Program-made: the position numbers and the translations under genes
From: Amycolatopsis sp. DSM 110486
Lineage (GTDB): Bacteria > Actinomycetota > Actinomycetes > Mycobacteriales > Pseudonocardiaceae
NCBI RefSeq assembly: GCF_019468465.1
Contig: NZ_CP080519.1
Location: 2,681,001-2,745,000 of the forward strand
DNA: 64,000 bases
Reading direction: 5' to 3'
Shown here: positions 17,315-19,621 of the stretch, in pieces
Layout of the letters: each line of letters begins with the position of its first letter
Position numbering within the stretch: position 1 is the first letter of the stretch
The notes under the pieces: model-generated
The model's database searches: none
What the model was told of the DNA's origin: nothing
Seen by the model: the letters and a program-made list of their open reading frames with translations, nothing else

Positions 17315-17349
17315 GACTACAGTGTGACATATGGACGTCAAACGTCACT
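17315..17349. promoter_or_regulatory. Very short divergent control region with a dyad
   Basis: Only 16 bp separate the two divergent start codons. AGTGTGAC at 17321-17328 and GTCACT at 17344-17349 form an imperfect dyad across the tetR start. Rightwards, TACAGT lies 7 nt before the tetR ATG, which fits a -10 element for a leaderless mRNA. The TetR product is the likely repressor of both directions. Confidence 0.35.
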
Positions 17350-17975
17350 CCCCACCGGGAGAGACTCCCTCGGCCCTCGCGGGGGCCCGCAGCCGCCAGA
17401 CCTCAGCGCGCGTTGCCGACGACGTGCTGCTCGACGCCGCGCGCGAGTGCGTGCTCGCGGTCGGTGTCCGGCGCACCACGCTCGCCGAGATCGCGCGCAC
17501 CGCGCGCGTGAGCCGCATGACCGTGTATCGCCGGTTCCCTGACGTACGCAGTGTGCTCGCCGCGCTGATGACGCGCGAGTTCAGCGGGCTGCTCCAACAC
17601 GCCAGCCACGCGGGCGACGACGCGGCCAACACCCGCGAGCGCCTCGTGCTCATCGCGGCGGCCGGCGTCAGCGCACTCGCGGCCGACCCGCTGTTCCGCA
17701 CGCTGCTCGACGTCGACCCGGAGCTCGTGCTGCCCTACATCGTGGAGCGGCTCGGGGCCACGCAGATCTTCGCCGAACAGGTGCTGCGCCAGCTGCTCGA
17801 GGCCGGGCACCGCGACGGTTCCGTGCGCCAGGCCGAGGTCACCGCGCAGGCGCGCTCGATCCTGCTGGTCGTGCAGTCGTTCGCGTTCTCACTGCGGCCC
17901 GCCACCGCGGACCTCGACGAGCAGGCGTTGCTCGACGAGTTCCGGTACCTCGTCGACGCGGCCCTCAAGCCATGA
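17331..17975 (+). CDS. TetR-family transcriptional regulator of the AGPS-like/glpD cluster
   Basis: A 214-residue regulator. The N-terminal helix-turn-helix is ARECVLAVGVRRTTLAEIARTARVS followed by MTVYRRFPD (about 38-72), standard TetR_N. The C-terminal ligand domain is unclassified. The first 25 residues are a basic, probably disordered tail. The gene is divergent from the AGPS-like flavoprotein and its TGA overlaps the first ATG of the tandem units that lead into glpD, so tetR and glpD are one transcript. A repressor of glycerol-phosphate or lipid-related metabolism is likely from context; the ligand is unknown. Confidence 0.9.
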   Translation: MDVKRHSPPGETPSALAGARSRQTSARVADDVLLDAARECVLAVGVRRTTLAEIARTARVSRMTVYRRFPDVRSVLAALMTREFSGLLQHASHAGDDAANTRERLVLIAAAGVSALAADPLFRTLLDVDPELVLPYIVERLGATQIFAEQVLRQLLEAGHRDGSVRQAEVTAQARSILLVVQSFAFSLRPATADLDEQALLDEFRYLVDAALKP

Positions 17976-18085
17976 GCACCGCCGACGTTCTCCTCCCCGC
18001 GGAGGCGGCATGAGCACCGCCGACGCACTCCTCCCCGCGGAGGCGGCATGATCACCGCCGACGCACTCCTCCCCGCGGAGGCGGC
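17972..18085 (+). repeat. Three tandem 38-bp units, each a complete mini-ORF with its own ribosome site
   Basis: Units start at 17972, 18010 and 18048 and differ at only three positions. Each begins ATG and encodes 13 residues (MSTADVLLPAEAA, MSTADALLPAEAA, MITADALLPAEAA), then TGA. Each TGA overlaps the next ATG as ATGA; the first ATG overlaps the tetR stop and the last TGA overlaps the glpD ATG at 18086. Each unit has GGAGG four bases before the following ATG, and a CCTCC nine bases upstream that can pair with it (loop CCGC), hiding the ribosome site unless the unit is translated. This is a chain of coupled re-initiation steps, or a slippage expansion of an intercistronic leader. Peptide expression is unproven. 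Confidence 0.9.
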
Positions 18086-19621
18086 ATGAGCACCGGCTCG
18101 CTGAACGCACGCCGGCGCGAGCGTGAGCTGGACCGGCTCACGAACGGTGAGCGAGTCGATGTCATAGTGGTCGGCGGCGGCGTCACCGGCGCCGGCATCG
18201 CGCTCGACGCGGCGGCCCGCGGATTGTCGGTCGCGCTGGTCGAGGCCCACGACCTGGCATTCGGCACGTCACGCTGGTCGAGCAAGCTCGTGCACGGCGG
18301 CCTGCGCTACCTCGCGAAGGGCGAGTTCGGCCTCGCGCACGAAAGCGCTGTCGAGCGCGGGATCCTGATGACGCGCACGGCGCCACACCTCACGCGCGCG
18401 ATGCCGCAGCTGTTCCCCTTGTACCCCAGTACTTCCCGCCCGCAGCAGGCCGTGATCGCCACCGGTCTGCGCGCGGGTGACGCGCTGCGCCGGACCGCGC
18501 GCACGCCATCGTCGGTGCTGCCGAGGCCCCGGCAGATCCCGGTGGCCGAGGCCGTGGCGCTGGCTCCGGGCCTCGCGCCCGCCGGTCTGCGCGGCGCGCT
18601 GCTCGCCTATGACGGCGCCCTCGTCGACGACGCGCGCCTGGTCGTGAACCTCGCCCGCACGGCCGCGATGCTGGGCGCGCGGATCCTCACGCACGTGGAA
18701 GCCGTGTCGCTTTCGGGCACCGGCGTGCGCGTGCGCGAAGGCTCGGCCGAGTACGAACTCCACGCGCGCCAGGTCGTCAACGCGACCGGTGTGTGGGCGG
18801 GCACGCTCACCGACGCCGTGCGGCTGCGGCCGTCGCGCGGTTCGCACCTGGTCCTCTCGCCGGGCGCCGCCGCGGTGGGCGGGACGTCGGTGAACGTCGC
18901 CGTGCCCGGGGAGAGCAACCGGTTCGTCTTCCTGCTCCCGCAGGTCGACGGCCGCGTCTACTTGGGACTCACCGACGAGCCCATCGAGGGTGAGATCCCG
19001 CCGGTGCCCGAGGTGCCGGAGTCCGATGTGGACTTCCTGCTGTCCGTGGCGTCCTCCGTGCTCGCCCGGCCGCTGTCCCGCGCCGATGTGATCGGCTCCT
19101 ACGCCGGCCTGCGCCCCCTGGTCGCCGGCTCCGCCGGCAGCAGCGCCGATCTTTCGCGCAAACACGCCGTGGTCACCGGCACCGACGGCGTACTCACCGT
19201 GGTCGGCGGCAAGCTCACCACCTACCGCCGCATGGCCGAGGACGCCGTCGACGCCACGCTGGTGCACTCGGGCCTGCACGCCGGCCCGTCGCGCACCTCG
19301 CGGTTGCCGTTGCTGGGCGCCGCCCCACGCGCCCGGCTGTCCCTTGTGGACGCTCCGGCCCGCCTGGTCGCAAAGTACGGCACGGAAGCTCCCCGCGTCG
19401 CCGCCCTCGGCGAGGTCGACCGGACGTTCGCCGCCCCGCTGTTCGACGGCACGCAGATCACCGCGGCCGAGGTCGTCTGGGCCGTCCGCCACGAGGGCGC
19501 GCTGGACGTCGAAGACGTACTCGAACGCCGCACCCGCCTGTCGCTCGTCCCCGCCGAAGCCGACGCCGCGCGCGCCCGCGTGGCGGAGCTCGTGGAGAAG
19601 GCCCTGGCCGGACTGTCCTGA
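18086..19621 (+). CDS. glpD: Glycerol-3-phosphate dehydrogenase, FAD-dependent
   Basis: Membrane-associated flavoenzyme that oxidises sn-glycerol 3-phosphate to DHAP and reduces quinone. The 511-residue protein has the Rossmann FAD motif VIVVGGGVTGAGIALDAA (about 26-43), the GlpD signature SRWSSKLVHGGLRYL (about 62-76), GSYAGLRPLV near 350 and GGKLTTYRRMAEDA near 372, plus the C-terminal DAO_C domain. Its start context is supplied by the tandem unit before it, which provides GGAGG at 4-nt spacing and an ATGA overlap. It shares a transcript with tetR. Neighbouring AGPS-like flavoprotein could use DHAP-derived lipid precursors. Confidence 0.95.
   Translation: MSTGSLNARRRERELDRLTNGERVDVIVVGGGVTGAGIALDAAARGLSVALVEAHDLAFGTSRWSSKLVHGGLRYLAKGEFGLAHESAVERGILMTRTAPHLTRAMPQLFPLYPSTSRPQQAVIATGLRAGDALRRTARTPSSVLPRPRQIPVAEAVALAPGLAPAGLRGALLAYDGALVDDARLVVNLARTAAMLGARILTHVEAVSLSGTGVRVREGSAEYELHARQVVNATGVWAGTLTDAVRLRPSRGSHLVLSPGAAAVGGTSVNVAVPGESNRFVFLLPQVDGRVYLGLTDEPIEGEIPPVPEVPESDVDFLLSVASSVLARPLSRADVIGSYAGLRPLVAGSAGSSADLSRKHAVVTGTDGVLTVVGGKLTTYRRMAEDAVDATLVHSGLHAGPSRTSRLPLLGAAPRARLSLVDAPARLVAKYGTEAPRVAALGEVDRTFAAPLFDGTQITAAEVVWAVRHEGALDVEDVLERRTRLSLVPAEADAARARVAELVEKALAGLS

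Follow-up and report, generated by a model that had tools for sequence, protein, structure and literature searches.

A dispersed 38-bp repeat at stop/start junctions of Amycolatopsis, probably a well-tolerated insert, and its three-unit array between tetR and a glpD-like gene

Contingency loci and variable-number tandem repeats (VNTRs) consist of tandem units the number of which can be changed by slippage, and in leader-peptide attenuators and coupled upstream open reading frames (ORFs), a short ORF lies directly before a gene such that the translation of one can affect that of the other. MITEs are typically far longer than the 38-bp repeat that is the subject of this work. The mycobacterial interspersed repetitive units (MIRUs), the described system nearest to this repeat in form, were reportedly described by Supply et al. 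in 1997. According to the excerpted text of PMC12548453, MIRUs are short, apparently mobile repeats that insert at start codons and contain an internal ORF coupled at -4 nt, and their insertion probably has little effect on expression. The excerpts of PMC4213456 describe the arrays of the senX3-regX3 region, which consist of three 77-bp units in H37Rv and of two 77-bp units plus one 53-bp unit in CDC1551, and restrict the MIRUs of this region to M. leprae and the tuberculosis complex.

Here we analyze a window of 64,000 nucleotides (the whole stretch of DNA examined) from Amycolatopsis sp. DSM 110486, in which three 38-bp units at positions 17972-18085 bridge the stop codon of a tetR gene and the start codon of a glpD-like gene (Table 1). 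TRF delineates the array as 17971-18095, with a period of 38, 3.3 copies and 95% matches, and a repeat search of the window returned three copies spaced by 38 and 38 bases; together with the sequence itself, these results bear out the first-pass annotation, which had seen three near-identical units at this place. Its description of four successive ATGA overlaps between self-contained units, each with its own start, stop and GGAGG, likewise holds in the sequence: the overlaps lie at 17972, 18010, 18048 and 18086; the ATG of unit 1 overlaps the tetR TGA (17973-17975), the TGA of unit 1 (18011-18013) is inside unit 2, and the ATGA at 18086 joins the stop of unit 3 to the glpD-like start. The mini-ORFs of the three units encode the peptides MSTADVLLPAEAA, MSTADALLPAEAA and MITADALLPAEAA, and both CCTCC and GGAGG are present in 3/3 units. 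The downstream gene is called glpD-like because its product scores 260 bits against the NCBIfam GlpD model, under the cutoff of 360. At the other end of tetR, an inverted repeat, GTGAC-N15-GTCAC (17324-17348, found by eye), spans the start codon and adjoins a divergent FAD-oxidase gene; it is a candidate operator for the TetR protein.

Table 1. Features of the tetR-glpD junction in the window
Feature	Position	Strand	Evidence
TetR-family regulator gene, upstream partner	17331..17975	+	ORF; Pfam TetR_N, 38.9 bits; orthologue in 80/80 genus genomes
Unit 1: ATG overlap, 13-codon mini-ORF, GGAGG	17972..18009	+	sequence, TRF, repeat search
Unit 2, two substitutions relative to unit 1	18010..18047	+	sequence, TRF, repeat search
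Unit 3, one substitution relative to unit 2	18048..18085	+	sequence, TRF, repeat search
GGAGG four bases 5' of the glpD-like ATG; predicted anti-SD duplex -10.1 kcal/mol	18075..18079	+	sequence, duplex prediction
glpD-like gene (FAD-dependent glycerol-3-phosphate dehydrogenase family), downstream partner	18086..19621	+	ORF; Pfam DAO, DAO_C

The same junction was read in all 80 Amycolatopsis genomes, each representing one species. A bare (A/G)TGA overlap of the tetR TGA with the glpD ATG or GTG is found in 76 of these, including locus L076 (genome G004), and an insert is present in four: 3 x 38 bp (114 bp) in DSM 110486, 1 x 38 bp in G010 and in G047, and 23 bp in G056. The G056 insert is 15 bp shorter than one unit and therefore still of the form 3n+2, such that all four inserts are 3n+2 or whole multiples of 3n+2 units. 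Comparison of unit numbers in relatives, the check proposed in the first-pass annotation, thus found numbers that vary (3, 1, 1, shortened) and 76 of the 80 genomes with no unit at all; across species, these states, including the zero, support the claim that unit number can change without a glpD frameshift. A tree built from tetR and glpD for 50 of the 80 genomes (G073 and G031 sit on long branches there) groups the four filled genomes with the empty G068 in a single clade (SH-aLRT 80). The site requires at least two changes on the tree, either two gains or a gain plus an exact loss; given that two changes suffice, one gain and one loss would do, which counts against a reading of this site in terms of mobility.

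These data bear on the role that had been proposed for the array, namely, that of a glpD-specific stepwise attenuator or contingency tuner, in which the number of units, changed by slippage under selection, would set the GlpD/TetR ratio. Unit number does vary among close species, with three, one or a shortened unit within one clade and none in the neighbor G068, and the units lie directly 5' of the glpD start, each with a strong predicted Shine-Dalgarno (SD) site. Against this, the repeat is missing before glpD in 76/80 genus genomes, and it occurs, also in tandem, between unrelated genes. We reject a glpD-specific attenuator on account of its absence before glpD in most of the genus, and regard a tuner of this kind as quite improbable.

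A second junction was examined in the same manner. The junction between two mce genes, another site occupied in DSM 110486, was matched by the query in 79/80 genus genomes, of which 37 were read: 6 are filled with one 38-bp unit (G000, G009, G016, G018, G049 and G056, the left third of the unit being diverged in G056), 27 have a bare TGA overlap, and 4 have another arrangement (G022 has an unrelated insert, G012 and G036 a palindromic one, and G028 lacks the overlap). On the tree of the 33 filled or bare genomes, this site accounts for at least 6 changes, and G010, the sister of DSM 110486, is bare at mce-mce and filled at tetR-glpD. Thus, at the sequence level, filled and exactly empty alleles of one site are shown both at tetR-glpD and at mce-mce: at the two sites, the 38-bp unit, preceded by TGA and followed by ATGA, sits where the stop and start codons overlap as (A/G)TGA, and relatives lack exactly this unit. 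From these alleles, we infer that the repeat would have moved; no transposase or transposition was seen for it. The mce-mce junction also accommodates other sequences. The insert in L358 and L359 (G012 and G036) is another sequence, an almost perfect palindrome of about 40 bp, GTGAGTGTTTATGCCGG...CCGGCATAAACACTCAC, and in L335 (G022) about 44 unrelated bases are inserted, which contain a direct repeat of CCCGCCACAGCCAC and end in GGGAGGGCGACATGACC, an SD site followed by ATGA.

Beyond these two junctions, the repeat is widely dispersed. A degenerate 42-base pattern of the unit, allowing up to 3 mismatches, yielded 78 matches in 35/80 genus genomes and none when read backwards, so the unit is not a chance sequence. 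A sequence model built from 43 aligned pattern copies, the invariant columns of which include a GGAG stretch, has at least one match in 72/80 genus genomes; in the DSM 110486 genome, there are 12 matches at E<=0.01, 9 of these at E<1e-8, including 3 in the tetR-glpD array. Each 38-bp unit comprises a core of about 31 bp that the copies share and, in addition, bases of the junction; unit number in tandem arrays differs between species, from 1 to 4. Model matches were detected in 227/390 Pseudonocardiaceae genomes, representing 31/46 genera. In an even sample at the order level, 36/397 genomes match at E<=0.001, 27 inside the family and 9 (among 370) outside it; of the latter, only G400, with 16 matches, and G402, with 10, are strong, and the other seven have one marginal match each. 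Thus, two genomes from other families of the order hold 16 and 10 copies (loci L326 and L327), and most of the sampled order holds none, a distribution that either common descent or transfer could account for; by eye, one three-unit array of G400 and one copy of G402 also start at TGA and end in ATGA. Collections of plasmids and phages searched at E<=0.01 gave no match, and carriage of the repeat by either is accordingly rejected.

Many of the copies lie at gene junctions. Among 109 distinct arrays, 84 are flanked by an ORF that closes at the element and another that opens at its end; of the rest, 9 show the upstream feature alone, 8 the downstream feature alone, and 8 lack both. The downstream start is exactly ATGA in 80 of the 84, and the downstream genes fall into 43 clusters. 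This sample, in which clustering merged two arrays of L211 into one, was ranked with a model that has TGA and ATGA in its ends, and the underlying scan was gapless, so the uniform length of 38 nt is partly built in. Because the sample favors the stop/start context, a model of the 31-position core without the ends was built and applied in a census of six genomes chosen by us, several of them for high copy number (L317 and L320 have no array at the census threshold). Of the 53 arrays in this census, 25 are at stop/start junctions, 7 have the upstream side only, 3 the downstream side only and 18 neither. By a loose rule, 25/53 arrays have a closing ORF on one side and an opening ORF on the other, compared to 0.67% of random placements in the same loci, and by a strict rule, 18/53 compared to 0/17,928; on the opposite strand, 1/53 meets the loose rule. 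An unbroken chain of overlapping stops and starts runs through 64 of the 66 strict arrays of the first sample, and in the remaining 2, a C precedes the TGA, reading TGATG. One stop/start array, L315, has a period of 39, and its units do not relay singly. The flanking gene pairs are unrelated, also where the repeat is in tandem, and in DSM 110486 alone, the pairs at five junctions comprise rraA-prpF, ABC ATPase-amidohydrolase, roadblock-DUF742, mce-mce and tetR-glpD.

The conservation of GGAG raises the possibility that the unit is kept as a useful portable ribosome-binding site, which, at any landing site, would strengthen the gene that follows or uncouple it. The anti-SD duplex predicted 5' of glpD, with GGAGG four bases from the start, is -10.1 kcal/mol in DSM 110486, G010 and G047 and -6.4 in G056; the 75 bare junctions evaluated (L076 left out) have a median of -1.9 (range -9.0 to 0.4), and only 2 of them have a GGAG or AGGA-type motif in the 20 bases upstream. 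The predicted pairing is nevertheless strong, down to -9.0, in some bare junctions (at least 5/75). The GGAG stretch is indeed among the invariant columns of the 43 aligned copies. However, copies located elsewhere than in front of a start codon have the same GGAGGCGGC, which may thus be conserved because the copying was recent; in addition, the mce copies differ between close relatives, with the changes counted above, a pattern that does not resemble steady retention. We therefore consider a retained ribosome-binding site unlikely.

The first-pass annotation had noted a CCTCC/GGAGG hairpin in every unit; both motifs are there, but in the predicted fold of the unit, CCGCC pairs with GGCGG, together with an inner three-pair stem. 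None of the six folded sequences is clearly more stable than its shuffles (z from -0.28 to -1.61). Among 42 aligned rows, one of which is a typing error, CCTCC/GGAGG pairing occurs in 88.1% of cells compared to 87.8% of shuffled ones (212/500 shuffles are as high), CCGCC/GGCGG pairing in 96.1% compared to 96.2%, and there is no covariation in either candidate stem; a conserved hairpin that sequesters the SD site is rejected on these grounds. The hairpin arm is lost at the tetR-glpD junction in G047 and G056, and this lack of conservation, along with pairing no better than shuffled, speaks further against the glpD tuner. An Rfam scan gave two matches, both far below the gathering scores (26.5 of 46 and 23.7 of 58.8), and we reject membership in a known RNA family. 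The array could also be a promoter or RNA element for glpD, in line with the claim, in the excerpted text of PMC4213456, that regX3 can be expressed independently of senX3 from the intergenic region that holds the MIRUs. Within 17900-18200, a scan that covers actinobacterial promoters poorly found no sigma-70-type site and no terminator-like site, so a promoter or terminator in the array is rejected; in view of this result, the weak Rfam matches and the lack of covariation in both candidate stems, we consider such an element very improbable.

The 28 census arrays outside stop/start junctions include a second recurrent arrangement. Twelve of them are in antisense orientation and share the frame of a start codon at most 25 codons upstream, 4 are antisense in frame without such a start, and 12 are elsewhere, neither at a junction nor in the antisense class; the antisense frames were chosen by GC3, and several are uncertain, among them L310, L311, L322 and L314. 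In 8 of the 12 antisense arrays (L153, L284, L297, L300, L308, L309, L318 and L324), the distance from an ATG to the array is exactly five codons, and the peptide continues as ..ASAG.. or a close variant. Where antisense in-frame units are in tandem, their period is 39 bp (two units in L284, four in L290, three in L293). The same period occurs in sense orientation outside start codons (L225, L294) and in the junction array L315, so the rule of 38 at junctions and 39 in frame is strong, not absolute. L293 (G063, three units) and L286 (G008, one unit) appear to represent the same antisense site within a gene, differing in 39-bp steps with the frame kept. One gene with antisense copies encodes a product whose 116 residues used for the comparison match the Der GTPase model; in the 30 loci read from the 79 matching genomes (L366-L383 among them), copies counted by eye from the peptides number two in L366, one in nine loci and none in twenty. 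The core is poor in stops on both strands, with a stop in any of the six frames in 9/42 rows compared to 54% of shuffled cores, which would ease its life in either orientation. A broader interpretation, which we advance as a tentative possibility, is that of a minimal non-autonomous mobile element that is translationally tolerable both ways: sense copies would rebuild stop, SD site and start (3n+2), antisense copies would add an in-frame peptide rich in Ala, Ser, Gly and Lys (3n) at a fixed position near the start of the protein, even in the ribosome-assembly GTPase Der, and the element would have spread family-wide in operons and genes by near-harmlessness.

Taken together, we consider it quite likely that a small, dispersed, mobile-looking repeat, which occurs in much of the Pseudonocardiaceae, has expanded locally to form the array, and the array itself is probably a well-tolerated insert and not a special switch for the glpD-like gene. 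As the filled and empty alleles suggest, an element of about 31 bp would enter a TGA-containing site and duplicate a few target bases, including the TGA. A sense insertion at an ATGA overlap would place a start over the old stop, followed by a stop-free mini-ORF frame, GGAGG and a new ATGA, that is, a working junction, and would be tolerated for this reason. Ribosomes ending tetR could resume translation first at the 13-codon mini-ORF and then at glpD, or new ribosomes could bind at GGAGG; the unit may raise initiation at glpD, the bare overlap of which usually comes without an SD site. In the lineage of DSM 110486, slippage or unequal recombination could have expanded one unit to three with a whole-unit period, which leaves every junction intact. 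The null model of slippage thus fits the growth of the array but not its origin, which would be an insertion into the bare overlap, and a regulated, glpD-specific role would be unnecessary.

How does the repeat compare with the known systems? Like contingency loci and VNTRs, the array consists of tandem units of changeable number, but it never alters the downstream frame, and the data comprise one genome per species. With MITEs and REP-type elements, the repeat shares short length, dispersal, the lack of genes, inverted-repeat-like ends (CCGCC, GGCGG) and apparent short target duplications, but it is also far shorter than typical MITEs and is directional at stop/start junctions. As in leader-peptide attenuators, a short ORF is placed directly 5' of a gene, where coupling is possible in principle; in contrast to these, there is no conserved RNA structure and no conserved link to gene function, and the repeat is missing in most relatives. 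The first-pass annotation knew of no described system of this form, but as the excerpts of PMC12548453 make clear, mycobacterial MIRUs have it. So far as the partial descriptions in that source and in PMC4213456 go, both are dispersed, mobile-looking repeats at start codons, with an ORF coupled at -4 nt (ATGA) and tandem arrays, and the 77- and 53-bp units of senX3-regX3 are 3n+2, as are the 38, 41 and 23 bp of the Amycolatopsis repeat; on the same partial descriptions, the unit is shorter (38 bp against 53-77 bp) and the antisense in-frame coding mode is absent from the MIRU accounts. The repeat has the many loci, the -4 nt coupling at starts (not in the other 28 of the 53 census arrays), the filled and empty alleles and the tandem arrays of a MIRU; its hosts are Amycolatopsis and the family Pseudonocardiaceae, not mycobacteria. 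By its described form, the repeat appears to work like a MIRU, but we do not file it as one because the host group differs and the likeness is one of form. Among open-licence full texts, we found no paper that names such a repeat in Amycolatopsis or Pseudonocardiaceae.

What remains new is a MIRU-like family with an antisense coding mode. Its existence raises the question of what mobilizes a gene-free repeat of some 38 bp. One junction that occurs naturally with 0, 1 or 3 units is material for measuring the effects of such inserts on coupled translation. In general, these observations would mean that MIRU-like translational-relay repeats are not confined to mycobacteria and also occur in a family of actinomycetes that produce antibiotics.
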